Shown: positions 1 through 25,702 of the stretch, piece after piece
How positions within the stretch are numbered: the first letter of the stretch is position 1
Layout of the letters: the number at the start of each line of letters is the position of its first letter
Assembly: GCA_900128565.1 (NCBI GenBank)
Contig: LT635993.1
Coordinates: 1-25,702 of the forward strand
DNA: 25,702 nt
DNA from: Stramenopiles sp. TOSAG23-6
Lineage: Eukaryota; Sar
Reading direction: 5' to 3'
Position numbers and translations under genes: made by a program
The notes under the pieces: generated by a model
Databases searched by the model: none
Seen by the model: only the letters and a program-made list of their open reading frames with translations
What the model was told of the DNA's origin: nothing

Positions 1-53
1 TTGTACCTAACAAATTTTAGTTTTTTTTTTTGAAATATTTTTCCAAAATACAT
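1..53 (+). repeat. Partial introner-type intron (3' end only)
   Basis: The window opens inside the branch-like motif (TTGTACCTAACAAA) of the shared intron family. The element runs through a T-rich tract to a family-type end, CCAAAATACAT. The following exon starts at 54 in an open frame. The 5' half lies outside the window. Confidence 0.7.
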
Positions 54-392: not shown

Positions 393-466
393 TGTAAAGT
401 TTAATTTTTTGGTTTTGTTTAGGTACAAAAAATCGTAGGAAAAAAAAAAAAACGTGTAAAGTTTAA
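392..466 (-). repeat. Introner-like core between two 13-bp direct repeats
   Basis: The 13-mer GTGTAAAGTTTAA occurs at 392-404 and 454-466. Between them, on the minus strand, is a T-run, TCCTACGATTTTTTGTACC and TAAAC, which resembles the inner part of the intron family. It lies in the short gap between two convergent genes, in the probable 3' UTR of the giant gene. The usual GTACGT start and CACAATACAT end are not recognisable. Confidence 0.45.
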
Positions 467-551
467 ACGAAATAAATTTATTTTTTTGTCTGAAAATATT
501 TGCTAAAAGCACATCTTCGAATTTATCTTTTACATTTCTTTAATTTTGAAT

Positions 552-6500: not shown

Positions 6501-9422
6501 TTCTTCCAATTCATCATTAGAAAGTCTCAGTGCAAAAGAAATTTGCATATCCCGCAACGCCTCGCGAAATTCACCGGGCGATATGAAACCATTACTATCA
6601 GTATCATACCCCCGAAAAAGTGAAGTCAAATGTTTCTGCATCACTTCAAAACTTTCCCTTTCTTCGATAGAAACAATAAGATGATCTTCTACACTAGGCT
6701 TTTCCCATACACACACTCCAGTTGCAATTTCCCAATAATAAGGATAACCATCCTCACTCATATGTTCTTCCCATGTGTGAGGAATACGAGCAAGCGCTGC
6801 GGCTTCTGGGTCAACATTTGTTCCAAGTTTTATATTTGTTATTATATCTATTTCTAGATTTGATTCTTTTTCAAATGATTGTATTGTTTCTTGGGTCACT
6901 TTATTGGATACTTCACTTGTTGATTTATCACTAATATTCAAACCACCTGCTAATTTCATTAACTTTAGTTTTTTCATTGCCGATTGCATCGCTTTTGGTG
7001 GTTCTCGCTTATTGCTTGCAAGCCAATGTTCTACTTTTGTCTTTGTTAAAAGTGTAGCTTCATCTATACTAACCTTTCCATCACCATTACCCATTTTATC
7101 TGCCATTAACAATAACTGTTCTAGCTCATTGTCAGGTATTGAAAGAGCAAATGCAATTTGCATATCTTGTAGTGCAGCGCGAAACTCTCCAGGGGATATA
7201 AAGGAACTATTATCTTTATCATACTTTTGAAATAATGTTTTGAGTAGAATTTGTCTTTCTTCCTCAGTTTCTTCATGTTTTCGAAGCATCAAATGTTTTG
7301 GTATCCCAGCAGGATACTCCCATTGACTTGTATTTGTGTCTGTATTGAAGAAGAAAAGTGTTCCATCTTCAGCTTTATGCTCTTCCCATTCCCCGAGTTT
7401 TGTTGTGTCTCCAACACTGACAACACGAATTCTATTCATTATTTTTCGTATCTTTGAAACTCTTTGCGATTTCACTTTTATTTTTTCCTGTGCATCATGC
7501 GCTATAAGCCACTCTTCAATAGTTTTAAGCGACAGATTGAGAATCTCTGAGATACTCACTTTACCATCACCATTTTTATCAGCAGTACTAAGAAGAGATT
7601 GTATTTGTTCATCAGATAATGACACAGAAAGTTTTGCTATATCTATTTTGTGTAAGTCTTTCAAACAATTCTTAAACTCTTGAATTGATATTTCTCCACT
7701 ATGATCTTCATCGTAAACACGAAATAAACCTTCTAAACGATGTTGTCGTTGTAAAATCCCGGCATTTCCTTCCTTTGCAATTTTTTCTGGTAACACATCC
7801 GCTGGAGGGTGCCAAAGAGAGTTTTCTGTCAAAATATTATAGTAGAATACACCGCCTTTGCCATCTTCACATGTATTATGAAAACAAAATTTAAAAATTC
7901 GAAATTCGTTAGGTATAGAATCTTTGGATTTGGTATGAAAAAAAATAAATTTGAAATTATAAATTAGGGTTTTAAATGAAAACGTACATTCTTCCCAAGA
8001 AACAGGAATTTGTGCAAATATATTTGGGGCAGATTTTGAACTATTAAAAGCTGATTTATGTGCGCGTATAGCAACAACAGATGCATCATATGCAAAGTAT
8101 GCAGCATCTGAAGCAGATTTCGCTGCTTTTACTTTTTCCCTATCAAAAGCCCCTAGTTGATGAAGTTCTGCCTCTGCACGGCCTACACTTAATTTAGCAT
8201 TTTCACATTCTTCCTGTAAAGCATTCAATTTTATTTTTTGTGAATTCAGTTTTAATTTTATTCTATTCAATTTCAATAATTGTTTTTGAACATTTTCCTC
8301 CGCTTTTACAATATTTGTTTCGAGTATTTTAATATTTTTCCTTGCACTGGTAATGGCAACTTTATTAGATTTAAAAGTTTGACCCCGACTGATAAGAGTC
8401 TGGAGGCGCTCAATTTCAGCATTATTTGCATCAAAATCGTCCTTTGCGTTTCGTTTTATATTTTCAGCATTTTCATATTTTATAGTTTCTGTTGTGACCT
8501 CATTTTTGATGTTATCGAATATTTTTTGTGCTTTTAAAACGCGTTTTTGTAATTGCTCATATTTAGATTTATTCTGTGATATTGTTTTCATTGCAACTTT
8601 TTCGGACTCTCCACACAATTCAAGATAGGCTTGTAATTCTCCAGCTGCATGAATTATGAAAAAATATTTCAAAAAAAATATTTTTTCGTTAGGTACAAAA
8701 TTTCGTACGTAAAAAAAAGATAAAAAATTGAAATGAAAACGTACATCTATTGATTCAAAGAGAACTCTGTCGTGTTCGACTTTGAGTTCATTGTACAGTT
8801 TTGTCATTCCTTCCAGTTTTTGTTTAGATTTTGATAACTTTGCTTCTCTTTTTGATATTTGGTTTTGAACTATTTCTATTTTTTTATCACATTTTTTGAG
8901 CTTCTTTTTCTTTGCGTTTTCAGTCTTCAATTCCGTTTTTTCTGTGTTGAGTTGTTCCAGAGCAGCGATTGATTCATTGTACACACCAAGGATAAGAGAA
9001 TGTTCTTGTTGACTTTCTTCCATATTTTGCTTTGCTGTCAATAACTTTTGAGCTGCCTTGGCATGAAGCGAGGCTATTTTTTTATGAGCTTTCGCGGCAA
9101 TTCGACTAGCTTTAGCAGCTGCTTTCTGGTCAACCTTTTCGTCTCTTAAATACTGAAGAAAATCGCTCTTTCGCCTGTTAAATCTTTTCATCTGTATTTC
9201 TTCTGGCGACAATCTACTATTTTCTGAGAGTTTCACTTGTACTTTCATTTTCCTGAATAATTTACCGAGGCGCTTGGCAGGTGCCTCGACTATACTTGAA
9301 CCATCTGCTTTTAAAATAAGCCACGGTTTAACGCCTTGAGGCGCTTCCCACTGAGAAGAATTTGTTTCCGAGTCAAAATAAAATACACCTCCTTCGCCAT
9401 CATCATGAATTTCCCACACCAT
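552..9422 (-). CDS. Giant WW / EF-hand / coiled-coil protein
   Basis: The spliced product is 2885 residues, from exons 9422-8745, 8648-7988 and 7870-552. It opens with a WW domain (WEIHDDGEGGVFYF...SQWEAP), then a Lys/Glu-rich coiled coil. Five WW domains follow (near 8010-7800, 7390-7295, 6780-6690, 6300-6200 and 5810-5715), each trailed by a pair of EF-hands such as DEDHSGEISIQE and DKNGDGKVSISE. Next come a 45-bp tandem repeat, a very long Ala/Glu/Lys-rich coiled coil, a degenerate seventh WW near 1395-1285 (YMKP in place of WxxP), an IQ-like motif (CIQSLARGMLTRLRLKK) and a basic tail. WW domains bind proline motifs, EF-hands bind calcium and IQ motifs bind calmodulin. A calcium-responsive cytoskeletal scaffold is my inference. 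I recognise no named orthologue. The start is the only ATG immediately ahead of the WW domain. The part below 4179 is duplicated in the right arm. Confidence 0.85.
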   Translation of the reverse strand: MVWEIHDDGEGGVFYFDSETNSSQWEAPQGVKPWLILKADGSSIVEAPAKRLGKLFRKMKVQVKLSENSRLSPEEIQMKRFNRRKSDFLQYLRDEKVDQKAAAKASRIAAKAHKKIASLHAKAAQKLLTAKQNMEESQQEHSLILGVYNESIAALEQLNTEKTELKTENAKKKKLKKCDKKIEIVQNQISKREAKLSKSKQKLEGMTKLYNELKVEHDRVLFESIDVRFHFNFLSFFYVRNFVPNEKIFFLKYFFIIHAAGELQAYLELCGESEKVAMKTISQNKSKYEQLQKRVLKAQKIFDNIKNEVTTETIKYENAENIKRNAKDDFDANNAEIERLQTLISRGQTFKSNKVAITSARKNIKILETNIVKAEENVQKQLLKLNRIKLKLNSQKIKLNALQEECENAKLSVGRAEAELHQLGAFDREKVKAAKSASDAAYFAYDASVVAIRAHKSAFNSSKSAPNIFAQIPVSWEECTFSFKTLIYNFKFIFFHTKSKDSIPNEFRIFKFCFHNTCEDGKGGVFYYNILTENSLWHPPADVLPEKIAKEGNAGILQRQHRLEGLFRVYDEDHSGEISIQEFKNCLKDLHKIDIAKLSVSLSDEQIQSLLSTADKNGDGKVSISEILNLSLKTIEEWLIAHDAQEKIKVKSQRVSKIRKIMNRIRVVSVGDTTKLGEWEEHKAEDGTLFFFNTDTNTSQWEYPAGIPKHLMLRKHEETEEERQILLKTLFQKYDKDNSSFISPGEFRAALQDMQIAFALSIPDNELEQLLLMADKMGNGDGKVSIDEATLLTKTKVEHWLASNKREPPKAMQSAMKKLKLMKLAGGLNISDKSTSEVSNKVTQETIQSFEKESNLEIDIITNIKLGTNVDPEAAALARIPHTWEEHMSEDGYPYYWEIATGVCVWEKPSVEDHLIVSIEERESFEVMQKHLTSLFRGYDTDSNGFISPGEFREALRDMQISFALRLSNDELEELMSFSDTNNDGKVDLVEATQLTHNVIKVWLKSRQYSVKDVIKSSISKMNVWGLSEFDFAKAGGSLLGKWEEHKAEDGTLFFFNTDTNTSQWEYPAGIPKHLMLRKHEETEEERQILLKTLFQKYDKDNSSFISPGEFRAALQDMQIAFALSIPDNELEQLLLMADKMGNGDGKVSIDEATLLTKTKVEHWLASNNREPPKAMQSAMKKLKIMGFTKPSGTSAPLIKQPQKHEWEEHIDADGHTYYWCIVTGQCQWNKPDVPVELLKKIDGKLNSIERQKHIQSLFTSYDADNNGFISSSEFQQVIFDMQVKDAFKIDGKIIPMNDEQLDALLSSADSNADGKVSIVEAAKITYKYVEEWFQKQRNPPTAIKSALNKMKLVGLHGNILKNVVPKVENVKNDTDTETINETELDFVDSIKTKISDVDNSVVDSIETKISDVDNSIVDSIETKISDVDNSKIDATESIGEENVVAKIISIDEINSSRAIGESSEINGIDEHEHVLSLLKNLGSRVDLIKIDENYFILQMFRKLLGHRCKLKTRTYKSGNVTPKDETEDKLVMKNAIIIAKSIANCVTEFASTLERDIVEIENFIEIEKKKICLAQYIQESANVAITASIAIKLVLDETETSINHAIMKAQAYTVESERPVKKNGALKILLKNAMKAKSVSSAWISRVKEDCELAAQKEESLRHEVESLQSELSICENNVCDAQNILSNAIVKVEEKVRLTTIKLSKREANVETLKIESFHVVGARETEKLQSRIEEELIAIETERQRIKSMCTSNSADVLSAKKDLQQTENESKKVALKCTKVQKDWEAAQNDANQKLTNVTNAKQQAFKEEEAIQSSRNTIMQQVELENERDHLAFTAFSLNKTCNIAAEKLKRLRKQSQILDHTEGRTIGEDRQNKTDIGTMRLHDEHIDDVNEMKKKTTEIDNVENEATEKEIIEIEAAEEELRKAKEEAKHAKAAWEAKRIACKKAEEAAAAKRVAEEEAAALKKRIETAKLERTNAKANVENAAKIRESLSATLQRIKEEEASAVAFEIQTECSRDEILAMKRQRRLEVEAEATAAHGYLQSTLDSNKPEAAAVFDKISENLKKLTALEFETTQNLNEEVNFAKQKTTLKEEELRNAKEALAISSLDYDAANAMYNVKKLEEEEIHSYLQVCAQKKALEASARKAKLRASIQKSKLSHLRQQLEWQCNIKNAAKVAAIKTLENVETNSRLKHEMYQNAKDDYNKVVKASQLAVENTIGDKTSSIAWYIAATASEAALQCYIKAEIMLAMTLIETAAHEEIQAISAAKQAEEEFRKINVKWANEFSSAAIVRHDSEETQTALLENAVKEHEKVKEQLKNSVLHHSEALAARVAWDSSSNDRCKTSRSISEKRRIDRHKRKAEYDNAIDARNAKAQQAEKDAREKAKEASRIKRVKQQQEWREKAMAKARAKVAATVASSATVEAMFMFNLCKSSVILARKRKIQIECSKEVAIAAYVAAGAAVYSFKLSKNAIQSIVSAKHRLRPILAKAAYVSASALLIARRERHRADHFVLDCIKSNQDAYRRHVVALKIEERQCGKSMADAATVCYQSALSSALSSAVAMAYVGSTIARHFSNIAANANDKVQEELRIRQEAITVAIQRAVIISCDAASFASTKSSLAISEAIRVKKVRRQELQNAARAARIAARAARRAFKYAEQVLVYIKAEISSFQNTSKWREIYNHKKMRYYYINKTTNEKTYMKPGPLLLKDEARMKLLKFGAEKAREMMLLQKSRQKLQQNDQCIDNLNTDKAFNIKDVDNASFFRRNHQSKAHPSFILKEKLKPISFSTINTILSMEFGLDWAELSPIGQLRCMRMSREKTALHNKVASCIQSLARGMLTRLRLKKLKSDADPKDNTFIHTKSRRRQSRKPKYTGKILNIQQPDKYYLPAIRPVIHDTCKKPFPKQVKINQRKKNRRFGARNRPTFGSDEGRKLASKMGLSSFGNPSFTLS
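5131..5265 (-). repeat. Three tandem 45-bp units in the giant gene
   Basis: CTATTGTCTACATCACTGAT begins at 5131, 5176 and 5221. Each unit encodes 15 residues of the type VDSIETKISDVDNSI. Only a few bases differ between copies. The repeat is a linker between the last EF-hand pair and the long coiled coil. Confidence 0.9.
5875..6296 (-). repeat. WW/EF-hand module, copy 1 of a near-identical internal duplication
   Basis: This 422-bp stretch matches 6967-7388 with only two differences seen (near 5929 and 5969). It encodes one WW domain and its EF-hand pair. The copies are 1092 bp (364 codons) apart, the length of a WW-EF-EF-WW-EF-EF block. Confidence 0.9.
6967..7388 (-). repeat. WW/EF-hand module, copy 2 of a near-identical internal duplication
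   Basis: This is the partner of 5875-6296. The second WW/EF unit of each block (6780-6440 and 5810-5450) has diverged strongly. That suggests local gene conversion of this module after an older block duplication. Confidence 0.9.
7871..7987 (-). repeat. Introner-type intron 2 of the giant gene, splitting a WW domain
   Basis: It starts GTACGTTTTCATTT, has TATACCTAACGAATTTCG inside and ends TTTTCATAATACAT. It is 117 nt, in frame and without a stop. Removing it restores a WW domain: SWEEC joins EDGKGGVFYYN. This fixes an AT-ended 3' border. Confidence 0.85.
8649..8744 (-). repeat. Introner-type intron 1 of the giant gene
   Basis: The exon ends ATAGAT, the intron starts GTACGTTTTCATTTC, has ACGTACGAAATTTTGTACC followed by TAACG inside, and ends TTTTTCATAATTCAT. 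The downstream exon is GCAGCTGGAGAA. It is 96 nt, a multiple of three with no stop, so it reads through as ORF. Its composition and family motifs mark it as an intron. Confidence 0.8.
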
Positions 9423-9735
9423 GGTCAGCTATTTTGATCCAGCTGTAGTGTTTTCATAATATTCTAAAACTTTAAATTGCTTGTTTGGAGAGTACTAAAA
9501 AAATAAGATGGTGAACTGACCAGTGTGACATTTTTGTAACTGTGGAGAATATTGCGAATGGAACAAACCTGAAACCTGAAATATATTTTTTCGATTATAT
9601 GCGCGCGAGCTCAGTCGAGCTCTTCTTCTTCTTTTTGTCACACACACAGCAGAGAAGAAGTGTTTTTCATTTTTATAGAGTACGACCAACCGTAATTGTT
9701 AGACTTCAGCGTTTTATTTCGCAAATTAATAGCAC
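9423..9735. promoter_or_regulatory. Divergent intergenic region between the giant gene and SF3B6
   Basis: The 313-bp gap between two divergent start codons must hold both promoters. It contains a GAGCTC-AGTC-GAGCTC element near 9608 in a purine/pyrimidine-skewed stretch (TCTTCTTCTTC) and a short CA run. I see no convincing TATA box or other named motif. Confidence 0.5.
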
Positions 9736-10062
9736 ATGGCAGGGGCTGGTGCGCGTACACATAAGCTATTGGGTCCAGAGGTTAATCGATGCTTGTATGT
9801 TCGTAATTTGCCTTTCAAAATCACAGCAGAGGAAATGTATGACATTTTCGGTAAATATGGAGCTTTGCGACAAGTACGTATAGGTAATGCGAACAATACT
9901 CGTGGTACGGCGTATGTAGTATATGAAGATATCTATGATGCAAAAAACGCAGTAGATCATTTATCAGGATTTAATGTCTGCGGGCGATATCTAATAGTTT
10001 TGTACTTTCAACAGACTAAAGGTAAAAGGCAGACTGTCCGGTCAAGGAAACCTAAAACATGA
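9736..10062 (+). CDS. SF3B6: Splicing factor 3B subunit 6 (p14 / SF3b14a)
   Basis: This intronless 108-residue protein is almost entirely one RRM. RNP2 is CLYVRNL at about residues 19-25 and RNP1 is RGTAYVVY near 56-63. The stretches [14 protein letters not shown] and DHLSGFNVC are hallmarks of SF3B6 rather than of a generic RRM. The protein is a U2 snRNP SF3b subunit that contacts the branch-site adenosine in the nucleus. The RNP2 tyrosine, equivalent to the residue that crosslinks to the branch point in animals, is present. The C-terminal tail is shorter than in the human protein (about 125 residues) and basic ([13 protein letters not shown]). The gene is divergent from the giant gene. Confidence 0.95.
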
Positions 10063-10202
10063 TAATGTTTCTATATGGCGACGACACAGTATAATAAAAA
10101 GAATAATATAAGCGTTTTTATTGCATTAATATTTCCAGTTTTGGTTCCTTTTTCTCATGTGAGAAAATTTCAGTGAACTAATTTCTTTTCATTTTCGACA
10201 AT

Positions 10203-10260
10203 GTATTGGCACGGAATCCAATACTATTTTTTCAACAAAGTATTGATACGGAATCCAATA
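10203..10260. repeat. Duplicated hairpin motif
   Basis: GTATTGG-CACGGAAT-CCAATAC (10203-10224) is a 7-bp stem with an 8-base loop. A second version, GTATTGATACGGAATCCAATA, sits at 10240-10260, with similar flanks in both. It lies 140-200 bp downstream of the SF3B6 stop. A terminator or element remnant is possible; the function is unknown. Confidence 0.55.
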
Positions 10261-10662
10261 TTATTTTAACGCTTTAAGCACATTATTTTTCAAAAAATCT
10301 TTAAAAAGTCGTTCACAACAGTATCAGTATATCCAGGGACATAGTAAAGTGTAATTCAGCATCATCAACACAAAAGAAATACTACATCTTCGAAAAAGAC
10401 ACTACATCTTTGGATACTAAAAAAATCGCATATTTCGTGTTTTTTCTGCATATTTTGTAATTTTTGAAAACAAAACAAGTAATTCATTTGAAAAGGGAAG
10501 GAAAAACAACAAGAAAAAAGTGATGTGGGACATATTGCTTTTGACTTATCTCATATTTTTAAAAAGATGAAATGAAATTTAATGGTATTGAAATGAAACA
10601 TTATCTTGTTGAAGGGCATAATATCCATGATTTAGATAATGGAGTTTTCAAAACATTGAAAT

Positions 10663-10686
10663 TTGTTAGGTACGAAATTTTCATAC
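10663..10686 (-). repeat. Solo introner fragment in intergenic DNA
   Basis: On the minus strand the sequence GTATGAAAATTTCGTACC followed by TAACAA matches the inner palindrome and branch-like motif of the intron family. No gene is recognised on that strand, and no family 5' or 3' end is found nearby. It may be a decayed copy or the intron of a lost gene. Confidence 0.5.
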
Positions 10687-10874
10687 AAAAATAAAAAAAA
10701 ATCGGAGATTTTCGATCTTTGAAGAAGGTTTTTGAATTTTATCGATCCGACGATATAATAAATTTATCGATCCTCGCGTACTACACTGATCAATATTCAA
10801 ATTGTATATATTTTACGATACTTCTTTTGAGTTATTCAGGAATAATCTACTTAAATCTTTCACTCAAACAGACA

Positions 10875-12765
10875 ATGAATCGTCTTTCTTGCTTTTCTGT
10901 AAGTATGTCAAAGCACCTAATTGGAATTTTGGTCTCATTATTTCTCCCCATAATTGTTCTCGGCACACATAGTGATGGACCAAGTGGAGGACGGAGTAAG
11001 GAAGTTTTGAACATGATGAGCGACTTCTCTTCAAAGTTGGCAAATATTGATGAAAGTATGCCAATCGGGTTAGATGATTTCTCGAATAGATTTAGAGGCT
11101 CTAGTGAGAGAGATTCCGGGATACAAATAACGATAAAGGAAAAAGAACTTCCTCAAAAAAATTTCCCCTTTTTATCATTTGATCCGCTTACATTACTCGA
11201 AGACCAAAGCACTAACAAAACTCATCCTCAAACCAACAATACTCAACCTCAAGCCAGTAGCATAACTCAACCTCAAGCCAGCAACACAACTGATGTGCGT
11301 TTTCAAAATCAATTTCGATTTTTATTTATACCAAATTTTGTGCCTAACGATTTTTTTACTGATTTTTTTTTCACAATACATCAAGCACAGGGATTAAATT
11401 CAACCCAAATCCAAGGATTGCATGGGAATTCTACTATAACAGAGCCTTTTGTATTGGACTCTCATCGAGCACCAGGAGTTCCATATTATCATGCAACTAA
11501 GTCAACAGATCTTTCTTCTTCTTCTTCTTCGGAAGATAACTGTTGCTCAGATAGCTTGGCACCAGGAATCCCAGGTTGGACTTCGGATTTAGATATAATT
11601 GATGAGAATGCCATTCGAGCAATGGAAGGTGCCATGTACGTTTTCAAAATTTATTATTCTTATCTATTTTTGTTGTTGCAAAAATTGAACTCAACTTTCA
11701 TACAAAAAAGAAATATTTCTTCACAATATAGTAAGCCTGTGATGAGACGAGCTGAACAAGATAAGCAAGTTGCAGATTTGATGACGGAACAAGCCAAGCT
11801 CTTTCAAGAGAAGGCTTTGGGTAGTCAGAAAGTGGCTCAAGAGACAAAAGAAAAGGTTGATAAATTGACATCTGCTGTACGAGCTAAACAAGATATATTT
11901 ATTGCAACGGGACTCCATCAAGATGTACGTCTTCCATCATTTTAAATTTTAAATTTATTTTTTTGAAAAACATCTGTACCCTATGTTAACAAAAAAATCA
12001 AATTTGAAATATTTTTTCACAATACATGCAGTGAGAGCACAATATATCACAAAAGCCCAATTGAAAGCTCAGGAAGCAACAGTAAAGCACCTACGGAAAA
12101 AATCAGAAGAAGCCGATGAAGCTCAAAAAAAATCATCGGAACGACTAGACAAAGTAGTACAGCAGTTTAAAAGTATTTCGAACCAACTACCTAGTGTCTT
12201 CATGGCACAAAAACTAGCTCAGAGGGCAGAAGATGCAGTTGGTAAACCTGAAATGAATGGTTTAATCGAAACATGGAATTTGCAGGGCATGGATCCGGAC
12301 TCTCATGAAAATACAAGAGATACAAAGAATTCAGTGACAGTCGAAATTTCACCAACTCCATGCAAAGCTTCAAGTGAACCTTGCGGTGAATCGAGACCAG
12401 CGGACGCAGCAGAAGCAGACACAGCAGACCCATCAGCACCAGCACCAACACCGCCAAATCCACCAACAACACAAGCAAACGCAGAAGCAGTACCGGCAGC
12501 AATAACAGAAGATTTAGCAGAAGCAAAAGCAAACGCAGCAACAGCTGGCACATTGGTGGAGTCAAACGCACATTCCGCGGAAAGCAGAGGAGACTTCGAG
12601 CGTTTGAAGGAAAGCCTCGAGAATAGTATTCAACGGGAGGCAGAGCGTGTGAAAAAACGCCTCGAGAATATCGAGAAAATACAAAATTCAATTACAAAGG
12701 AAATTTCTTCACCAGTGAAAGGTGAAAAAGAGGGAATGACTCAAAAAAGTGAGCCTATAGTATAA
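10875..12765 (+). CDS. Secreted Ala/Pro-rich coiled-coil protein, family member A
   Basis: The spliced product is 534 residues from exons 10875-11294, 11382-11635, 11732-11924 and 12028-12765. The start MNRLSCFSVSMSKHL leads into a hydrophobic signal peptide (LIGILVSLFLPIIVLG). It aligns with the leaders of the next two + strand genes. Then come Asn/Gln/Thr-rich repeats with N-glycosylation sequons (TQPQASSI, TQPQASNT), a Ser-rich patch with CC, and a coiled coil (ITKAQLKAQEATVKHL). The motif GKPEMNGLIETWN, a C-x6-C pair (PCKASSEPC), an Ala/Pro-rich linker and a charged C-terminal helix follow. I recognise no named family. The coiled coil, GKPEMN and C-x6-C features are shared with member C at 14292. 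All three introns belong to the repeated family. An upstream in-frame frame extension exists, but the leader homology supports this ATG. Confidence 0.75.
11295..11381 (+). repeat. Introner-type intron 1 of secreted gene A
   Basis: GTGCGTTTTCAAAATC starts it after exon end ACTGAT. It contains TTTTGTGCCTAACG and ends TTTTTTCACAATACAT. It is 87 nt, in frame and without a stop, so it also reads as ORF. Confidence 0.75.
11636..11731 (+). repeat. Introner-type intron 2 of secreted gene A (AG end)
   Basis: It starts GTACGTTTTCAAAATT and ends TTCTTCACAATATAG. It is the only complete copy here with a canonical AG end. The inner CTAAC motif is missing. The exons join as GGTGCCAT + TAAGCCTGTG. Confidence 0.75.
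11925..12027 (+). repeat. Introner-type intron 3 of secreted gene A
   Basis: It starts GTACGTCTTCC and ends TTTTTTCACAATACAT. Using the nearby AG (ATGCAG) would put a TGA in frame. The AT end keeps the frame and gives the same length as member C between the coiled-coil segments. Confidence 0.8.
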
Positions 12766-12824
12766 CAAAATTTAATAGTAAAATAAATTACAACGACAAA
12801 AACATTAGTAGCTTGAGTACTCTA

Positions 12825-13268
12825 TTAAAAGAATAACCCCCACACTTTGAATTCTGTTTCATCCCCAGTTGCATTTTTATCAGTGTGTACCGCAAAGAGT
12901 TTTGCGCAGCATGCAGACTTCACATCTTTGACTATAGGATTTGGCTCTGTTGTGGGGTTTACTCGAAGAGCTTTGAGGTTCCTGAGCGTTGCGTTTGCTC
13001 CAATATTTCTAAGGTTTCTGAAAAATACTGTTCCATAATAGCATGGTTGTCATTGAACAAATAAAATTCCTATTGATAAATTGCTGACAGCTGCAACTTT
13101 AGGGTACGGGCATAGGGTATAGGGTCATGAATTAGCTACCGAAATTACCGGATAATCATCATCCGTACGTTACTTTTTTTCGAAAGCAAAGCAAAGAAAA
13201 TCTTCTTCGCTCGATCTAGATCGCGAAGTCACCGTTGATGATACTGTTAAGACAATATCGTGTAACAT
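12825..13268 (-). CDS. Small two-exon protein of unknown function
   Basis: Exon 1 is 13268-13174 and exon 2 is 13017-12825, with a canonical GTAACG...TTTTTCAG intron of 156 nt between them. The phase is kept and the product is 95 residues. It starts MLHDIVLTVSSTVTSRSRSS and continues KNLRNIGANATLRNLKALRV, then NPTTEPNPIVKDVKSACC, and ends KVWGLFF. It is mixed in composition, with a CC pair and no obvious signal peptide or membrane segment. The opposite strand is also open in exon 2, but its translation is Phe/Ser/Val-rich as expected of an antisense shadow. I recognise no family. The gene is divergent from 13412. The assignment rests on a good splice acceptor, matching phase and plausible composition only. 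Confidence 0.45.
13018..13173 (-). other. Predicted canonical GT-AG intron
   Basis: It begins GTAACG and ends TATTTTTCAG on the minus strand. It lacks the repeated-family signature. It contains a run of degenerate CCCTA units (positions about 13092-13124). Confidence 0.45.
13092..13124. repeat. Degenerate telomere-like tract
   Basis: The + strand carries TAGGGTACGGGCATAGGG and then TATAGGG, loosely spaced GGG units resembling TTAGGG repeats. The tract is too degenerate to call with certainty. Confidence 0.3.
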
Positions 13269-13411
13269 TTTTGATCGAACTATTACTTAAAACTTTCTAA
13301 CGTGAAGACTCGATTCACTATCTTAATTCAGATTGTTTAAAATTATATTGGAAATTATACTAGTTTAATTTTCAGTGTTCAACCCAAAGCATCCTTTACC
13401 CAATCAAACCT

Positions 13412-13954
13412 ATGATGATGCCATCTTTAAATATGTCAAAGCACGTTACTCTTCTGGGGGTTATATTGATACTATTCCAATCCAAAAATTTCAATTGCTA
13501 TGCTACGCTGATTTCCGTCAAGAGTGTTCAAGCTTTGACAGACAGTCCCGAGGACCGTATAAATGAAGCTGTTCAAGGTATGTCAGACAGTGCTGTGAAT
13601 GCTCGGAAATTTCTTCAGAAATATCCTTCCAATTACAGTTCTGCTAACCCCATTGTGGCTGAATCTTTGAAACAATTACAAAGTGATGTATCAAGGATTG
13701 TAGCTTTGCATGAAGCACATGATCATAATGGTTATAATCATTATAATGTTGATTCGGATTATCAACATATGATACAAGATGCACAGGGGGAGATTTTCAA
13801 TAGAGTTACGATGAAAGCTTTGGAAAATGGAACAAATGCAAGTTTAAATGGATTCAATCAAGAAGAAAAAATTCACGAAAAGGTTGCTCATGTGGCGGAC
13901 AATGCACGCGAAAAAGTGACTGGGTTACAACAGAACCTTCGAAGTAACATTTAG
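13412..13954 (+). CDS. Secreted protein, family member B (short)
   Basis: The product is 180 residues, unspliced. Three consecutive ATG codons start it (13412, 13415, 13418). The first aligns with the start of member C (MMMPSLNMSKH against MSPPSLNISKY). A signal peptide (VTLLGVILILFQS) is followed by a mostly helical, charged domain with a His/Tyr-rich stretch (HEAHDHNGYNHYNVD) and sequons (NYS, NGT, NAS). It lacks the GKPEMN motif and cysteine pairs of the neighbours, so it shares mainly the leader with them. The 5' leader also resembles that of member C (TTTAATTTTCAGTGTTCAAC against TCTAATTTTTAGTGTTGAAC). I recognise no named family. Confidence 0.7.
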   Translation: MMMPSLNMSKHVTLLGVILILFQSKNFNCYATLISVKSVQALTDSPEDRINEAVQGMSDSAVNARKFLQKYPSNYSSANPIVAESLKQLQSDVSRIVALHEAHDHNGYNHYNVDSDYQHMIQDAQGEIFNRVTMKALENGTNASLNGFNQEEKIHEKVAHVADNAREKVTGLQQNLRSNI

Positions 13955-14291
13955 AATATACTGTAGGGTATCATCATTCCTGTTTTTAAAAATAAAATTT
14001 AAATTGCAAATTCATTTCGATTTTTTTCTTTTTCAAATTTAAAAATTTTTCAAAACTTGCTGCGATCTAGATCTCGATCCTGAGATAGCTAGAGATCGAT
14101 CGACCGTATCTTAGTACAACAATTAATTGGATTGGATCTTCTACCATACCTTCCAATTTTTTAATTAAAACAGACTAAACACCACTATCCAAATTTGCGT
14201 AATTTAAGCATAACTGTTGAGTAGAGGTAGATTAGTCTAATTTTTAGTGTTGAACTCACCGTATTCTTTCTTTAACACTGTCAGGTCTACG
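13955..14291. other. Intergenic region upstream of secreted gene C
   Basis: It is AT-rich. It contains the palindrome GATCTAGATC (14064-14073) in a GATC-dense patch, and a 5' leader block similar to that of gene B (from about 14236). No gene is seen. Confidence 0.5.
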
Positions 14292-15716
14292 ATGAGTCCT
14301 CCATCTTTGAATATTTCAAAGTACCTACTAGTTGTTATGATATTTACGTTAATTTCCCCTAAAACGGTTTTCTGCGCAAAACAGCATAAGGTAAAACTGA
14401 GGAATGTGTTAGAAATGCCTAGTGACTCAAAAAATAATCAAAGGGTGTCCATACACGGAGGACTGCAATCTAATAGATTTACAGATATCGAAACAATGAA
14501 CACCGCTTCTGGAAAACAACAAGTTATGTCTCTAAATAGATTCAGAGGTACCCACGAGAACACTACGATTGCTTGTGGCAAAGAAAACAGTGTTACTCCT
14601 TGTGGTGAGGTACCCCAGGAAAATCCGGTTGAGTATTATACAGTAAGCAAGGGCTCAGGATCTGCTGAAGGGTGTTGTTCGACGGCGGCTGATGACGCTA
14701 TTATAGAACAAGCAGAAAGGGATAAACTTGCAGCTGATTTAGCCTTGAAAAATGCAAAAATACTTGAAGAAAATGCAAAAAAGAGTGCAGATGCTGCAAA
14801 GAGTGCAATATCTAAAAGAGATGATTTAAACAGTAGAATTAGAGTGAAGACAATCTTAGATGAAGCAAAAAAGAAACATCTTAGAGCAACTGAAAGATAC
14901 GGAATCACGAAGGCACAACTTCGAGCTCAGGAAGCAGCAGTAAAACACTTAAGTATAGATGCGAAAAATGCAAAGCAGTCATTAGAAGAATCAACTGAAG
15001 AATTGGATAAAGCATTCGCGGCCTTTAGAAGTCTCGCGACTAAATTGCCTAGTGTTACATTGGCAGAGAACTTAGCAGAAGAGGCTGAGAATGCAATTGG
15101 TAAACCAGAGATGAATGATTTAATTCAGACGTGGAATTCGGCCAAATCAAATTTGGACAAAAATTCAACACCATGTAACTCTTCGGGAAATCCTTGTGAA
15201 AATCATAACAACGAGGTAAAGCCGTGTAACTCAACAGATAAAGGATGTGGTGTCCCAAAGGAAAGTGGAGATGATACCCTGCACGAATTTGCTACAGACA
15301 ACGATGTAGAAATCGATATATCTACAGAAAAAATTGGTTCAAATATGAAAAACTTAAAAATTCCTGCTCCAGAGAAGGCATCTTTACAAGGCAATTCAAG
15401 TGATGATACCCAGCANGANTTTGCTACAGGCAACGATGTAGAAATCGAGATATCTACAGAAGACATTGGTTCAAATATGAAAACCTTGAAAATGCCAACT
15501 CCAGAGAAGACATTGGTAGCTCCATGTGATTCTTCTGTCAAACCTTGTACGAAGAATATTACAGATACATTAACTCTGGTTGATCCATGCAACTTTTCGG
15601 AAGCTGGTTGTGTCTCCGGAGAACATCAAGATCATAAAAGTGACACTGCTGTTTTAAGTACTAGTTCTAAAGATTTAATAGCTGATTTTGTAAACGACAC
15701 AAAGGAAAATTCATAA
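14292..15716 (+). CDS. Secreted coiled-coil protein with C-x6-C repeats, family member C
   Basis: The product is 474 residues, unspliced, from ATG 14292. A signal peptide (YLLVVMIFTLISP...VFC) is followed by a variable region, a CC pair and a long Ala/Lys/Glu coiled coil. Then come ITKAQLRAQEAAVKHL and GKPEMNDLIQTWN, both shared with member A. The C-terminal half has four C-x6-C pairs (PCNSSGNPC, PCNSTDKGC, PCDSSVKPC, PCNFSEAGC) and a tandem 132-bp repeat. Two bases are unresolved (N at 15416 and 15419), so two residues there are unknown. The stop is 33 bp from that of the convergent UAP1. I recognise no named family. A surface or secreted repetitive protein is the inference. Confidence 0.75.
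   Translation: MSPPSLNISKYLLVVMIFTLISPKTVFCAKQHKVKLRNVLEMPSDSKNNQRVSIHGGLQSNRFTDIETMNTASGKQQVMSLNRFRGTHENTTIACGKENSVTPCGEVPQENPVEYYTVSKGSGSAEGCCSTAADDAIIEQAERDKLAADLALKNAKILEENAKKSADAAKSAISKRDDLNSRIRVKTILDEAKKKHLRATERYGITKAQLRAQEAAVKHLSIDAKNAKQSLEESTEELDKAFAAFRSLATKLPSVTLAENLAEEAENAIGKPEMNDLIQTWNSAKSNLDKNSTPCNSSGNPCENHNNEVKPCNSTDKGCGVPKESGDDTLHEFATDNDVEIDISTEKIGSNMKNLKIPAPEKASLQGNSSDDTQXXFATGNDVEIEISTEDIGSNMKTLKMPTPEKTLVAPCDSSVKPCTKNITDTLTLVDPCNFSEAGCVSGEHQDHKSDTAVLSTSSKDLIADFVNDTKENS
15270..15512 (+). repeat. Tandem 132-bp repeat in secreted gene C
   Basis: GATGATACC starts unit 1 at 15270 and unit 2 at 15402. Unit 2 is matched for about 111 bp, to the shared CCAGAGAAG. The units encode FAT.NDVEI.ISTE.IGSNMK. 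The two N bases fall in unit 2, perhaps because reads from the units were mixed. Confidence 0.85.
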
Positions 15717-15749
15717 TAAAAAGCATTTCATTCTAATGTTTATAGTTTA

Positions 15750-17811
15750 TTATATCGAAACTTTGGTTGACTGATCTTTCTTTATACAGTCATTGTCCGA
15801 GCTAAGAAAAACGGGTGTTTTGTAGCATCTGCCTTGGACTAACTTTGAAAGCCCTTCGCCACTGAAACTTAATTTGGCAGACACTTCACATAAATCTTCA
15901 CCAACTACAGTAGCACCTGCCGCTATCAACCATTTTCTATGTAGGTTTGACGTCATGAGTCTAGCTGTTTCTGGCGAGTCATTTCCCGTCGCGTTCTTGA
16001 CTGGCGAAAATTCATTCTCACGATTCACTTCAAGTACTACAAGGTTACTTGCTATAGGGAACAAATCAAATATGAATGACTCTAATTTTATACCATTTCT
16101 TTCTCTCGGGTTTGGATCATCGACACAAGGAATCACACAATGTGAAAAAATATATTTTTTTTTGGCTGAAAAAAAATCGTTAATTACAACATTTGGTACA
16201 AATAAAAAAACAAAAAAAAATTCAACTTTTGAAACGAACACTTTCTTTGCAATATGGTATTTACGAGGCAAATTATTCGGTGCACAGTTATTTTTAAGAA
16301 AATCAAAAGAGTAGTAGTGTATGCAAACGTTACCTGCACGAAAAGTAAGTTGACCGTTCAAATCACACTTTTTTAATAATTCTGGTTTCATATCAGAATA
16401 TTCCACGACGCAAGTGATGTATTGTGAAAAAAAAAAATTGTTTTTAGTAAAAAAAATCAGTTAGGTACGAAATTTCGTATGAAAAATATATACTGAAAAT
16501 ATTCAATTTTGAAAACGTTCATTCCGGAGCGACGACAGAGTACACCCACTTTCTCTTCTGGGTTAGTTTTCGACACAACTTTGTTACCTACATCTGCATT
16601 TCGATCTCGGCAATAGCCTACAAATACTGGATCTCCCACTTTACTCATTGCATTATCAATTGCACCACACCAAATATGTATTGTGAAAAAACATTGTTTT
16701 TTGGAGAAAAATCGTTAGGTACGAAATTTCGTATGAAAAAATTGAAATTTAATTTTGAAAACGTACACTCGACACTCCTTTACGTTGCATATGACTAATT
16801 GGGGATTCCGTGCCTAATGTTGATCCACAACCATGTAGGGCTCGATAGATCCCACCATTACCGTCTGGTGCAGTCGCTACTTCAAACTTAGATTTAAGAA
16901 GAATTTTACCATCCGGTGAGAGACAAGGTAAAGTATTGTGAAAAATATATTTTTTTTTTTTTGTAAAATAAAAAAAATTGTTAGGTACGAAATTCCGTAC
17001 GAAAAAAAAATAGGTAAAAAAAATTCAATTTTGAAAACGTACAAGTGCCTTGCTTGAAAAACACGACTTGATCTTCAGCTAAGCCAAAGTTATTATTAGC
17101 TTTGAAATATTTTACTGTATCATCATATATTGTCAAATAATATGGTTGAAGTTTGAAATTCGTTAATTTTTGGAAGAGTACAAAAATTGGATTTAATTTG
17201 GGTAGTAAATATACAAAAAAACTCAAAAAAAATGCTAGGTACGAAATTTTCTACGAAGAAAAAAAGTAAATTTGAAATTCATCATGAAAACGTACATCAG
17301 TCATTGGACTCGTCATTACATATAACCAGACTTTTGGCTGCACATTTGAAATTTCAGGAAAGTTCATTTTCGCAAGTTCTTGTAGTTTGAGTATGCGTTC
17401 ACACTGCAACTGGAAAAGACTCTTTTTGCTCAAGAGACCAATGTTAAATTCTCCTTTTGGACGATTGGATTTCAAACGTGTACCTTGACCTCCCGCCATA
17501 ATGATGACACCTAATTCTTGCATTGCAACAGCTTTCAAGCCATTGTTGCGCCATGCTTCAGTTTGGTCATTTGGGACGTCACTTAAAACAGTAACCGATT
17601 CGCAAGGTTGGAGGGTTCCACCAGTTCCACTCTCAGTAGCAAGACCATCCATCGTTGCTTTATAAATATTGTTGACGTACTCAGGGTCGTGTTCGCCTAA
17701 TTGTTCTAAGAACATCTTCAACTCAATGTTTGATGAATCCTTTTCACAAAATCGCATGACATGTCCCTGTTTGGCATCTGCATAACGCTTCTGCTGAATA
17801 GAAAAATTCAT
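15750..17811 (-). CDS. UAP1: UDP-N-acetylglucosamine pyrophosphorylase
   Basis: Six exons (17811-17296, 17124-17043, 16930-16767, 16675-16521, 16416-16240, 16134-15750) give 492 residues, near the usual length of about 500. The enzyme makes UDP-GlcNAc and pyrophosphate from UTP and GlcNAc-1-phosphate in the cytosol, feeding glycan, GPI and chitin-type pathways. The nucleotide-binding loop MAGGQGTRL...PKG is at about residues 105-120. Further family blocks are [43 protein letters not shown] and [32 protein letters not shown] comes near the C-terminus. With the non-AG borders given here, segment lengths around most junctions match those of animal and plant UAPs. The gene is divergent from GlnRS and convergent with secreted gene C. 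Confidence 0.95.
16135..16239 (-). repeat. Introner-type intron 5 of UAP1 (GT end)
   Basis: It starts GTTCGTTTCAAAAG after AAAGT and ends TTTTTTCACATTGTGT. The last bases GT match the exon end. The join gives AKKVIPCVDD. It is the most diverged copy in this gene. Confidence 0.7.
16417..16520 (-). repeat. Introner-type intron 4 of UAP1 (GA start)
   Basis: It starts GAACGTTTTCAAAATT, not GT, after exon end GGAAT, and ends TTTTTCACAATACAT; 104 nt. The join gives [15 protein letters not shown], the same length as the animal enzyme there. Confidence 0.85.
16676..16766 (-). repeat. Introner-type intron 3 of UAP1
   Basis: GTACGTTTTCAAAATT, then CATACGAAATTTCGTACC and TAACG, ending TTTTTTCACAATACAT; 91 nt. 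The join gives [12 protein letters not shown], of the expected length. Confidence 0.85.
16931..17042 (-). repeat. Introner-type intron 2 of UAP1 (TT end)
   Basis: The exon ends GGCACTT. The intron runs GTACGTTTTCAAAATT to TTTCACAATACTT, and the last four bases, ACTT, equal the exon end. The join gives QGT-LPC, as expected in this family. Confidence 0.85.
17125..17295 (-). repeat. Introner-type intron 1 of UAP1
   Basis: It starts GTACGTTTTCATGATG after ACTGAT, has AAATTTCGTACCTAGC inside and ends TTGACAATATAT. At 171 nt it is the longest complete copy. The MTSPMTD/DDTVKYF join has the family length. Confidence 0.85.
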
Positions 17812-17895
17812 ATTTAGTCAGATGATTTCAAAAGCACTTGTGGGCTACCTAAAAATTGCCATCAGTAGGTAGACGTTGTTGACCAGTAGTAGGTA

Positions 17896-17926
17896 TTAAC
17901 CCTAACCCTAACCTTAACCCTAATTT
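17896..17926. repeat. Interstitial telomere-like repeat
   Basis: Four near-tandem CCCTAA-type units occur on the + strand (TTAGGG on the other), one of them CCTTAA. In several lineages such tracts are bound by telobox factors in housekeeping promoters. They can also be scars of break repair. Confidence 0.8.
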
Positions 17927-17988
17927 AACTATATCAAGTCCACGACACGTGTGTGAGCAGTCACAAATTCACAAGTCATGATGTGTAC

Positions 17989-18014
17989 CAACAACAACAA
18001 CAACAACAACAACA
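17989..18014. repeat. CAA trinucleotide microsatellite
   Basis: About eight CAA units end in CAG, about 105 bp upstream of the GlnRS start codon. If transcribed, it would lie in the 5' UTR of GlnRS. Confidence 0.9.
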
Positions 18015-18119
18015 GCAAAACATTGTATTAGTTTATTTTGAGTAAATATTTCAAGATGGTACGATACCTCGATACAGTTTAATCTAACAGAAAGGCTTGT
18101 AAAACATAATAGCATATTA

Positions 18120-20276
18120 ATGAGTGAATTAGCTTTATTTCGTACTTCTTTACGTCTACAACTGAAACACTTTTCAAGAGTTTCGAATATTCCCAACAGT
18201 CATTTTGCTTTTTCCACGGCTACTCCTTCAAACTTTGTGCGTTCACTTGTAGCATCAGATGTAGCAAATGGAAAGTTTGGTGGTCGAGTTCAGACAAGAT
18301 TTCCACCAGAGCCAAGCGGCTACTTGCATATTGGACATGCAAAAGCCATGTGTATCAACTTTGGAATAGCCAGTGATTATCGCGGCGGTTTATGTAACTT
18401 GAGATTGGACGATACAAATCCGGCTAACGTTAAGGAAGATTACGTCGCTGCAATTGCTGCTGATGTAAAATGGTTAGGATATAATTGGGATGGCGATATA
18501 CTCTATGCATCAGATTATTTTGATGATTTGTTTAATTTTGCTAAAGCTCTTATTAAGAGTGGCAAAGCTTATGTCTGTGAAGTCTCGCAGGATGAGTGGC
18601 ATAAAGGAGGACACGCTGGAACTTTAACAACTCCTGGTGTACCATGTAAATATCGCAATAGACCAATAGACGAGAGTTTACAACGATTTAATGAAATGCG
18701 TGATGGAGTTCATCCGGAGGGTTCAATTGTTCTTCGTGCAAAAATCGATTTATCATCGTCGAATATGCACATGAGAGACCCTATGAACGTTTTATTTTTT
18801 TTTACAAAAAAATCGATTTTTTTTTCGTACGAAATTTCGTACCTAACAAATTTTACAATTTTTTTTTTTCACAATGTATACTATATAGAGTGTTGAAAAA
18901 AAATCACTTTCGCACGGGCTCTACATGGAAAATTTATCCGACATATGATTATGCGCACGGTATTTCCGATGCGATAGAAGGTGTTACACACTCTTTATGT
19001 ACTTTAGAGTTTGAAGAACATCGTGCTTTATATAATTGGTTTGTTGATGCGGTTGGTGTTGGAACTGGACTTTGGCATTCAGACGATGATGGCGATGTGA
19101 TGAAACGCCAGCCTGAACAAACAGAGTTTTCTAGACTAAATATATCCAATTCAATTACATCAAAACGTTGGCTTCGTGCTCTCATTGATGCAGATATTTT
19201 ATCGGGTTGGGATGATCCTCGTATTCTAACGATTGCTGGGATGAGAAGACGTGGTTACCCGGCTCCCGCAATTAGAGGTTTTTGTAATGGTACAGGTTTT
19301 AATCGCACATCTGAGGGGGTAGTTGATATGAAAATGTTAGAATCATTTGTCCGTGATGAATTAGATAAAAATGCTCCTCGTGCTATGGGAGTTTTATACC
19401 CCTTGAAAGTTATCATTGAAAATTTTGATGATGCGTTTCGAAGTTATGGTTCAAAGAATAACCCTAACCCTAGTTCAAATGAGAATCTTGGTGGTAATAG
19501 TGCTACTCTTTGTATTCCAAATCATCCCAAGAATCCTGATATGGGCACGAGAGCGGTGCCAATTTCGAAGGAAATATTTATTGATAGAAATGATTTTAAA
19601 ATTGAGGCGAACAAAAAGTTCAAGCGCATGTATGTTTTCACATTTTAAATTTTGATTTTTTTTTCATAGTAAATTTTGTACCTAACGATTTTTGATTTTT
19701 TTTTTGAAATCTTTTTCACAATACATGACAATGAAACAAAGTGTTCGTCTCCGAGGATCCTTTATCATTCGTTGCAAAAAGGTAATTACAGATAAAGTTA
19801 CTGGTGAGCCTATAGAATTGCACTGTGTTGCAGACGAGAATTCAATCGGCAATAACCCTGATCTTAAAAATGGGCCGAAACCAAAAGGAGTTGTACACTG
19901 GGTTTGTGGAAGCAGTTCTGTTCCAGCAGAGGTTCGACTGTACAGTAATTTATTTATTGAAGATTGCGAAGATCCAGTAGCTGCTGCAATGGAAGCCTCG
20001 AAATTGCATGAATGTAATAATGATAATAGCAATGCTTTACCAGATGTGTCGTTTTTTGAACCATTTTTGAATAAAACTTCGAAAATTGTGATTTCGGATT
20101 GTCGCGTGGAAACAAGTATTTCACAGGCTACCCACGGAAGTGTGTTACAATTTGAACGCGAAGGATATTTTGTTATTGATGATGATTCTAAGTATACGAA
20201 CGATGGGAAACTAAGTAGTCTTGTGTTGAACAAAACGATTGGTTTAAAGGCAGGGAAGGGATTTGCTCGGAAATAA
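18120..20276 (+). CDS. QARS: Glutaminyl-tRNA synthetase
   Basis: Three exons (18120-18784, 18880-19629, 19727-20276) give 654 residues. The enzyme charges tRNA-Gln using ATP. It is class I: the HIGH motif is in PPEPSGYLHIGHAKA, and a KMSKS-type loop ITSKR lies within NSITSKRWLRALID. Other family blocks are RLDDTNP, YPTYDYAHGISDAIEGVTHS, the anticodon-binding part GVIHWV-like GVVHWVCGSS, and QFEREGYF near the end. The first 40 residues are rich in Arg/Ser/Phe without acidic clusters, which could be a mitochondrial targeting peptide. The N-terminal appended domain of many eukaryotic GlnRS is absent. An Asn/Pro-rich insert (NNPNPSSN, about 19458) is encoded by telomere-like CCCTAA units. Both introns are of the repeated family with AT ends. 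Confidence 0.95.
18785..18879 (+). repeat. Introner-type intron 1 of GlnRS (GA start, AT end)
   Basis: It starts GAACGTTTTATTTT after CCTAT. A perfect palindrome GTACGAAATTTCGTAC lies at 18827-18842, followed by CTAAC, and it ends TTTTTTCACAATGTAT. The join gives RDPILYRV, matching RDPVLYRI of bacterial GlnRS. TAT occurs at both borders. Confidence 0.9.
19630..19726 (+). repeat. Introner-type intron 2 of GlnRS
   Basis: It starts GTATGTTTTCACATT after CGCAT, has TTTTGTACCTAACG inside and ends TTTTTCACAATACAT. CAT occurs at both borders. The KR-MTMKQS-VRLR join has the spacing of known GlnRS. Confidence 0.9.
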
Positions 20277-25151: not shown

Positions 25152-25236
25152 ATTCAAAATTAAAGAAATGTAAAAGATAAATTCGAAGATGTGCTTTTAG
25201 CAAATATTTTCAGACAAAAAAATAAATTTATTTCGT

Positions 25237-25311
25237 TTAAACTTTACACGTTTTTTTTTTTTTCCTACGATTTTTTGTACCTAAACAAAACCAAAAAATT
25301 AAACTTTACAC
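25237..25311 (+). repeat. Introner-like core between 13-bp repeats (right-arm copy)
   Basis: This is the reverse complement of 392-466, located downstream of the chimeric gene stop. Confidence 0.45.
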
Positions 25312-25649
25312 TATATTTTTGAAGGGCCTTGTGGTGTTGAAACTTCCAAAGTCGATAATTCTTTCCGTTGAACAATGCTATGATCGCCAAGTATTGTAAA
25401 AAATATTTTGTTTTTTTGTTTTTTTGTTAGGTATAAAATTTGGTACGGAAAAAAAATAAATTCAAAATTCAAAAAAATAAAACAAATATGTATTGTGAAA
25501 AAATATTTTTTTTTTCGGTAAAAAAAAACTTCGTCAGGTACGTACGAAATTTTCATAATCAAAAATTCAAAGTACAATGGACAACGTACAAATGTTTCTT
25601 GGCATAATGCTGCGAGGACGTCCCCACGATGCAATGCATCAACAATGAC
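25311..25649 (-). CDS. 3' end of the unrecognised convergent gene (right-arm copy)
   Basis: Exons 25649-25590 and 25388-25311 are the reverse complement of the two exons at 54-392, with the same predicted peptide and the TAG stop. The composite intron 25389-25589 is also identical. The 5' part lies outside the window. Confidence 0.6.
   Translation of the reverse strand, partial: VIVDALHRGDVLAALCQETFVRCPLYFEFLIMKISYVPDEVFFYRKKKYFFTIHICFIFLNFEFIFFPYQILYLTKKQKNKIFFTILGDHSIVQRKELSTLEVSTPQGPSKI
25389..25589 (-). repeat. Tandem pair of introner-type introns (right-arm copy)
   Basis: Copies at 25488-25589 and 25389-25487 mirror 114-215 and 216-314. Confidence 0.7.
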
Positions 25650-25702
25650 ATGTATTTTGGAAAAATATTTCAAAAAAAAAAACTAAAATTTGTTAGGTAC
25701 AA
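25650..25702 (-). repeat. Partial introner-type intron (right-arm copy)
   Basis: This mirrors 1-53. It is cut by the window edge at the same base as its partner. Confidence 0.7.

Follow-up and report, generated by a model that had tools for sequence, protein, structure and literature searches.

Putative introners with mostly AT-ended introns in the genome of an apparent MAST-3 stramenopile

Contig LT635993.1 of Stramenopiles sp. TOSAG23-6 (assembly GCA_900128565.1) raises the question of how introns that are alike from end to end came to lie at non-homologous positions in unrelated genes. The whole contig of 25,702 nucleotides was analysed and is referred to as the window. Introners are a leading explanation for bursts of intron gain, and nearly all introns end in AG. 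Introners are known from many eukaryotes (PMC9860276). As judged from their sequences, the elements described here are probably introners, non-coding mobile elements of about 100 nt that become introns on landing in genes of an apparent MAST-3 stramenopile, and most of them end in AT.

A sequence-only reading of the window had proposed twelve introns of one family in four genes, coding for a giant coiled-coil protein (2), a secreted protein designated A (3), UAP1 (5) and GlnRS (2), and all twelve were confirmed (Table 1). A position matrix recovered every one of them at a score of at least 13; eleven scored above 34 and the one at 16135 just 16.8. CTAAC was present in 8 of the 12, as had been counted. 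The inner palindrome said to lead to it is weaker than claimed, being perfect (TACGAAATTTCGTA) in three of the twelve, with six of seven pairs in two and five of seven in another two, while the eighth copy with CTAAC has essentially none. Overlooked had been the ends, which are AT in nine and GT, TT and AG in one each, and the fact that in 10 of the 12 the final two bases are the same as the two bases preceding the element.

In the partial assembly of 8,027,113 bases in 408 contigs the window is contig C43, and the family extends well beyond it. A profile was built from 28 seed copies and the position matrix from 71 copies; together they gave the consensus AT/GTAYGTTTTC ... CTAAC ... TATTTTTTCACAATACAT/G, where the slash marks the element boundary (the 3' end is also given as TTTTTTCACAATACAT/G). 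In 225.7 kb, consisting of contig stretches and the window, 78-79 elements were found at a score of at least 13 and 72 at a score of at least 16, compared to 8 and 1 in block-shuffled sequence. Removal of mirrored copies left 63 unique elements at a score of at least 13. Element length ranged from 64 to 242 nt with a median of 101, and length modulo 3 was unbiased (29, 25 and 25 of 79). Similarity stops at the exon boundary: over the profiled range, from position -3 to the first exon base, the only biased positions outside the element were the 2 nt that precede it and the exon base that follows it (G in 44 of 83), and position -3 had a mixture of bases (C 29, A 26, T 15, G 13; n = 83). In the whole assembly the exact 3' end TTTTTCACAATA occurs at 583 places, 309 of which run on as CAT, and a sister end, TTTTTCCAAAATACAT, at 538 places, counts that include copies doubled through palindromic or duplicated contigs; the reversed-pattern controls gave 3 and 0. 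The absence of other copies, which would have spoken against introners, was thus not what the genome-wide search returned. Extrapolation of the density gives an estimate of about 2,000-3,000 elements for the whole assembly, a figure inflated by duplicated contigs. A combined element pattern had no match in viral contigs or in prokaryote genomes; an earlier pattern had matched 96 stretches of viral contigs, with one match each in the 80 listed, and this was taken as background. At C1:17483-17678 (L033) two elements follow one another head to tail without an intervening exon, which looks like insertion of one at the margin of the other.

The sets of elements differ in how they were chosen. Loci L001-L030 were selected by a CAT-ending pattern and gave 43 of the 77 elements of the larger set, so that AT ends are too frequent in the sets of 77, 83 and 86. 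The systematic set of 63, from stretches of contigs C1-C7 and the window, was read without this selection, though the larger set had served to train its scoring matrix.

Could paralogous genes, assembly chimeras or simple AT-rich sequence mimic such a family? Long perfect inverted repeats are indeed present in the window (4,179 bases; bases 1-4179 and 21524-25702, 100% identity) and in the examined stretches of contigs C2 (25.9 kb) and C4 (9.7 kb), and these are probably artefacts of amplification or assembly. Of the further copies that had been claimed at the two ends of the contig, those in the left arm stand, and those in the right arm are mirror images of them and not independent. But the unique sets were de-duplicated, the genes are unrelated, the reversed controls yielded next to nothing and the reading frame responds to exact removal as described below, which makes the chance of an artefact practically negligible.

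Exact removal of the elements restores reading frames. In the systematic set 47 of 60 junctions were open over flanks of 120 nt, compared to 7 and 11 after shifts by 1 and 2 nt and 9 without removal. In the larger set of 77, which includes the pattern-chosen loci, the figures were 63 of 74, 11 and 9 for the shifts and 15 without removal; three elements too near the end of a stretch were omitted from each count. Intron phases were 19, 17 and 17 (n = 53 junctions). Both junctions in GlnRS and all five in UAP1 are gap-free against solved homologues, and when UAP1 is aligned with 11 homologues, KQGT/LPC is flanked by the invariant residues Q185, G186, P189 and C190. In SF3B2 one of two junctions (IPPGA/SFGYH) is gap-free and the other lies at the alignment start; in a PIGA-like glycosyltransferase two of four are gap-free, the third is beside a 2-residue gap in one alignment and the fourth lies at the alignment end. 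A Pfam match spans the junction in 6 of 10 spliced proteins scanned (TBC, DEAD_2 and Helicase_C_2, Kelch, DHHC, RING, asparaginase) and in none of the other four; in another spliced protein, DUF5672 covers two more junctions. One junction splits the sequence LADE/MGLGKT, which we take to be an SNF2 helicase motif. Public gene models fail at each of the 7 elements in UAP1 and GlnRS, and some of them translate into the element. Frame and homology require that the elements are removed, and we infer that the spliceosome would remove them at the RNA level.

The elements carry signals that fit such a removal. The GTAYGT start is a good U2 5' splice site (G 0.92 and T 0.87 in the profile), CTAAC was found in 67 of 86 elements, and the branch A lies at a median distance of 36 nt from the 3' end. 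Among the 63 unique elements 48 are in sense orientation, 3 are antisense, 8 unclear and 4 at edges, compared to 36% sense and 36% antisense for random positions. Such a bias is expected if spliceable insertions alone survive. Excision at the DNA level, by which sequences like the internal eliminated sequences of ciliates are removed from the somatic genome and one copy is left, would also suit AT-rich elements of about 100 nt with a 2-nt flanking repeat whose precise removal leaves a single copy. But the strong sense orientation and the strand-specific, splice-like signals point to RNA, and we know of no nuclear dimorphism in stramenopiles; we regard DNA-level excision as highly improbable.

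Introns of the ordinary kind apparently occur in the same genome. Contig C3, with 7 elements at a score of at least 13, also has a GTAAGT...TTCTAAC...CAG intron, in a gene at about 11900-12700 (L039). The intron was first spotted by eye and is supported by the frame and by the similarity of its gene to what we take to be an FKBP-like sequence, and it indicates that AG-ended introns coexist with the elements. The codons of this gene seem GC-richer by eye. A scan for other coding-flanked GT-AG introns had no power, with 12 matches compared to 12-15 for five control dinucleotides.

The ends of the elements show where the unusual 3' termini may come from. Of the 63 unique elements 54 start with GT, and the ends are AT (45), TT (8), GT (3), CT (2), AC (2), AA (1), TG (1) and AG (1), so that the family does not consist of GT...AG introns. 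In 40 of 63 the element ends in the same two bases that precede it, compared to a mean of 28.2 (standard deviation 2.5) over 20,000 shuffles, whose maximum was 38. At a score of 16 the match was found in 40 of 60 (shuffle maximum 39), at a score of 20 in 38 of 54, where the shuffle maximum of 38 was just reached, and in the larger set in 58 of 83 (mean 41.9, standard deviation 2.4, maximum 52). Non-AT ends follow their own locus as well: in the larger set 9 of 13 match their flank (TT-TT 4, GT-GT 3, CT-CT 1, AA-AA 1). We read this as a 2-nt target-site duplication, imperfect at many loci, which supplies the 3' end of the intron. The duplication is mostly NT and not TA as in a Tc1/mariner-type miniature inverted-repeat transposable element (MITE). 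Whether matched and unmatched duplications differ in age was tested, and the difference was not significant (p = 0.49).

The proposal that the shared intron family consists of introners is thus supported by copies related over their whole length at unrelated gene positions, mostly in sense, with the frame restored on removal and a locus-specific match to the 2-nt flank. Under this proposal each element would bring with it GTAYGT as a U2-like 5' splice site and CTAAC as the branch point, some 36 nt before the 3' end, together with a U-rich tract and, at the terminus, CACAAUAC or CCAAAAUAC. Insertion would for the most part follow an NT dinucleotide, in most cases AT and often with G as the next base, and these 2 nt would be duplicated; the duplicated copy would become the last two bases of the intron, giving an end in AT (or TT, GT, CT, AA) and not in AG, and excision would leave the original coding sequence intact. 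The elements would have spread as a non-autonomous DNA transposon. For the 3' splice site we tentatively propose that it may be set not by AG but by a two-base ruler together with the CACAAUAC (or CCAAAAUAC) that the element carries. The spliceosome would then take any dinucleotide that the duplication supplies, and coding sequence could be restored at almost any NT site, beside ordinary GT-AG splicing in the same nucleus.

Several observations weigh against this account. About 8 chance matches are expected among the elements at a score of at least 13, and the flanking and terminal dinucleotides are themselves part of the scoring matrix. The copies are fairly diverged, with a median pairwise identity of 0.69 and a best of 0.92 among 78 copies, so that no very recent burst is seen. 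Terminal inverted repeats are minimal, about 4-5 nt by consensus with exact complementarity of the outermost 5 nt in 23 of 83, and thus shorter than the repeats of at least 6 nt reported in 72 of 177 introner families (PMC9860276). U1, U6, U2 and U2AF1 were not found in the assembly, a result that carries no weight since the assembly is partial and the search had no eukaryotic positive control. Flanking dinucleotides are unequal at 16 of 53 non-redundant junctions, and many duplications are therefore imperfect. At the unequal junctions a hexamer test gave 6 positive and 10 negative values with a sum of -1.62, which is neutral to slightly against a GT-AT cut. Of 11 Pfam models on a Kelch gene, 6 favour GT-AT by 2-4 bits and 4 favour a cut shifted by two bases, PF24681 with 200.2 compared to 185.1 bits (a difference of 15.1). 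Three other comparisons of the two cuts yielded 0.3 bits or no difference, and a fourth a weak match, below its cut-off, with GT-AT only (13.5 bits).

These comparisons bear on the question of where the introns are cut, as their boundaries are fixed to within the 2-nt duplication. Where the flanking dinucleotides are equal, GT...XY introns and XY...AC introns cut 2 nt further upstream at both ends give the same mRNA. With the upstream cut the elements would be introns of the form XY...AC, in most cases AT-AC, and either the minor (U12) spliceosome would remove them or they would belong to the rare AT-AC introns of U2 type; the constant AATAC would be their 3' end; the hexamer test leans slightly this way, as do the four Kelch-gene models. 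U12 introns have the 5' site ATATCC or GTATCC and a branch point near the 3' end. The 5' end that an upstream cut would create, ATGTAYGT, is unlike that site, and CTAAC lies further from the end than in U12 introns. The only clear decider among the unequal junctions, DUF5672, scored 72.8 bits with the GT-AT cut and 66.5 bits with the shifted one, 6.3 bits in favour of the former, to which the six Kelch-gene models may be added. The XY...AC cut appears quite unlikely to us and, because GTAYGT is a strong U2-like 5' site, GT-AT would be the simpler reading.

Amoebophrya, too, is described as having introns that are repeated, that do not end in AG and that are bounded by short direct repeats (PMC7789003), and the elements could be nonconventional hairpin introns like those of euglenids, hemistasiid diplonemids and Amoebophrya, in which the ends are joined by base pairing independently of U2 signals. 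Single-sequence folds of 77 elements had at least 5 end-to-end pairs in 52%, compared to 26% of shuffles. We attribute this excess to the shared consensus sequence. Pairing of an element's own ends does not exceed that between ends of different elements: the longest complementarity was 6.37 compared to 6.50 (n = 83), and the end-to-end duplex energy -6.73 compared to -6.93. Complementary ends of at least 8 nt were found in 14 of 83, and the family thus lacks the inverted repeats of 8-20 nt that join the ends in Amoebophrya. RNAalifold returned an empty structure, for which gapped columns may be the sole cause. Copies that were long or contained N were omitted from the folding, end-pairing and identity analyses. 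Hairpin introns do without fixed signals, whereas the elements carry constant U2-like ones, and we consider this explanation very unlikely.

How introners in this genome would have spread is a separate matter. Reverse splicing followed by reverse transcription, as proposed for fungal introners, would need no DNA transposase; it agrees with the finding that most identified copies are genic and in sense (48 of 63), with the minimal terminal inverted repeats and with the fact that no cognate transposase is linked to the elements. The locus-specific 2-nt duplication suggests a staggered DNA cut instead, and selection can yield the sense bias. Further, the assembly contains one match to a DDE_3 (Tc1/mariner-type) transposase (C298:6479-6913; a 432-amino-acid open frame without stops), a candidate mobiliser. 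Reverse splicing is a rather unlikely route in our view, and spread as a DNA transposon is preferred.

The probable host was assigned from nuclear proteins. In a protein search the best database matches of GlnRS and UAP1 were EukProt GSMAST32 2262 and 2261, adjacent genes judging by their numbers. The aligned parts are near-identical, and the mismatches lie at the introns and, in GlnRS, at further stretches missing from the public model. From the GSMAST32 label, the host is apparently a MAST-3 stramenopile from single-cell genomics and not a dinoflagellate like the host of the Amoebophrya elements. Its sequence probably stems from the Tara Oceans assemblies of MAST-3A and MAST-3F by Seeleuthner et al. 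(2018; PMC5778133). Contig C136 (L052; 16.8 kb) was read as mitochondrial, with ribosomal RNA genes, atp9, nad2 and ribosomal protein genes; TGA seemingly is a tryptophan codon on it. Such a gene-rich mitochondrial sequence presumably speaks against a dinoflagellate, in agreement with the protein matches, though the contig may be a contaminant. Seeleuthner et al. (2018) suspected contamination with organelle sequences between their own single-cell amplified genomes (PMC5778133), and the taxonomy was for this reason rested on the nuclear proteins. A conserved-pattern search of the assembly found no nuclear 18S gene, and an Rfam scan of the window at gathering thresholds gave no match.

At least six contigs start inside a sister-type element among the first 100 places listed: the window (38-53), C18, C19, C21 and C37 (39-54) and C45 (40-55). 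Judging by these starts, the element repeats themselves appear to break the assembly. Contigs C13 and C14 seem to be near-duplicates of one another.

The elements resemble several known systems in part. Introners of Chrysochromulina are likewise non-autonomous and bring their own 5' splice site while the duplication provides the 3' site; there the duplication is 4 bp and the end AG, here it is 2 nt and the end mostly AT, else TT or GT. In the same survey (Gozashti et al. 2022, PMC9860276), a target-site duplication is described for 49 of 130 introner families. The introner elements of Amoebophrya (Farhat et al. 2021, PMC7789003) are also non-canonical and repeated, with direct repeats at their boundaries, but belong to a dinoflagellate and have inverted repeats of 8-20 nt and no fixed dinucleotides, unlike the fixed U2-like 5' site and branch point, the end pairing not above the cross-pairing control and the apparent stramenopile host found here. 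In the tunicate Fritillaria borealis introns depart from the GT/AG rule en masse, as they do here, with the core spliceosome preserved and non-canonical 3' ends recognised by duplicated, diverged U2AF subunits (PMC13326754); in contrast to the present case, the abstract describes no introner family. Most introns of hemistasiid diplonemids also lack GT-AG, and a MITE-like origin was suggested for them, but their end pairing is extensive and their dinucleotides are diverse (PMC12621601). Mirusviruses, viruses of marine protists, have groups of similar introns as well, yet these are overwhelmingly GT-AG (PMC12768974), and the viral contigs searched here lacked the element pattern. Among the papers searched, none mentioned both introners and MAST-3, and in passages of papers on MAST any mention of introns or splicing was absent or irrelevant; any hint that the family is unpublished comes from these searches.

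Table 1 Elements of the family in the window. A slash marks the junction after removal of the element; flank, the two bases preceding the element.
Feature	Position	Strand	Characteristics
Introner, giant coiled-coil gene	7871..7987	-	GT start, AT end, flank AT; SWEE/CEDG in frame
Introner, giant coiled-coil gene	8649..8744	-	GT start, AT end, flank AT; ESID/AAGE in frame
Introner, secreted protein A	11295..11381	+	GT start, AT end, flank AT; NTTD/QAQG in frame
Introner, secreted protein A	11636..11731	+	sole AG end among the 12
Introner, secreted protein A	11925..12027	+	GT start, AT end, flank AT; LHQD/AVRA in frame
Introner, UAP1	16135..16239	-	GT start, GT end, flank GT; lowest score of the 12; AKK/VIPC beside invariant K352, I354, P355
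Introner, UAP1	16417..16520	-	GA start, AT end, flank AT
Introner, UAP1	16676..16766	-	GT start, AT end, flank GT (imperfect duplication); gap-free junction
Introner, UAP1	16931..17042	-	GT start, TT end, flank TT; KQGT/LPC between nearly invariant T187 and L188
Introner, UAP1, longer (171 nt)	17125..17295	-	GT start, AT end, flank AT; PMTD/DDTVKYF gap-free
Introner, GlnRS	18785..18879	+	GA start, AT end, flank AT; MRDP/ILYR gap-free against PDB GlnRS chains
Introner, GlnRS	19630..19726	+	GT start, AT end, flank AT; KFKR/MTMKQSVRLR gap-free
Sister-type element, 3' part	1..53	+	ends TTTTTCCAAAATACAT; contig starts within the element
Further full element	114..215	+	GTACGTTGTC...CACAATACAT
Further element, start unclear	228..314 (start approximate)	+	ends TTTACAATACTT
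Mirror copies of 1-314	25389..25702	-	not independent; 1-4179 = reverse complement of 21524-25702

Some other features of the window were seen on the way. Telomere-like CCCTAA repeats lie at about 17896-17923 between UAP1 and GlnRS, and a shorter CCCTAA run at 19459-19472, in a GlnRS exon, encodes a short insert. Three adjacent genes at about 10874-15716 are alike at their starts, with signal-like hydrophobic N-termini by eye, and the first of them alone bears elements at a score of at least 13. Secreted protein A, encoded by this first gene, had no homologue at an E-value of 0.001 and no Pfam match.

The search for introners in PMC9860276 set out from annotated introns and, because public gene models are wrong at 7 of 7 elements here, an AT-ended family could escape a survey of that type. 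The family shows how large numbers of introns can go unnoticed in surveys and gene prediction. As the 3' end seemingly comes from the target site, it also offers a natural test of how strictly AG is recognised, and the divergence of U2AF in Fritillaria (PMC13326754) makes this factor a place to look in MAST-3. Knowing the right splice rules would help in mending the gene catalogues of MAST-3, a marine group that is mostly uncultured.

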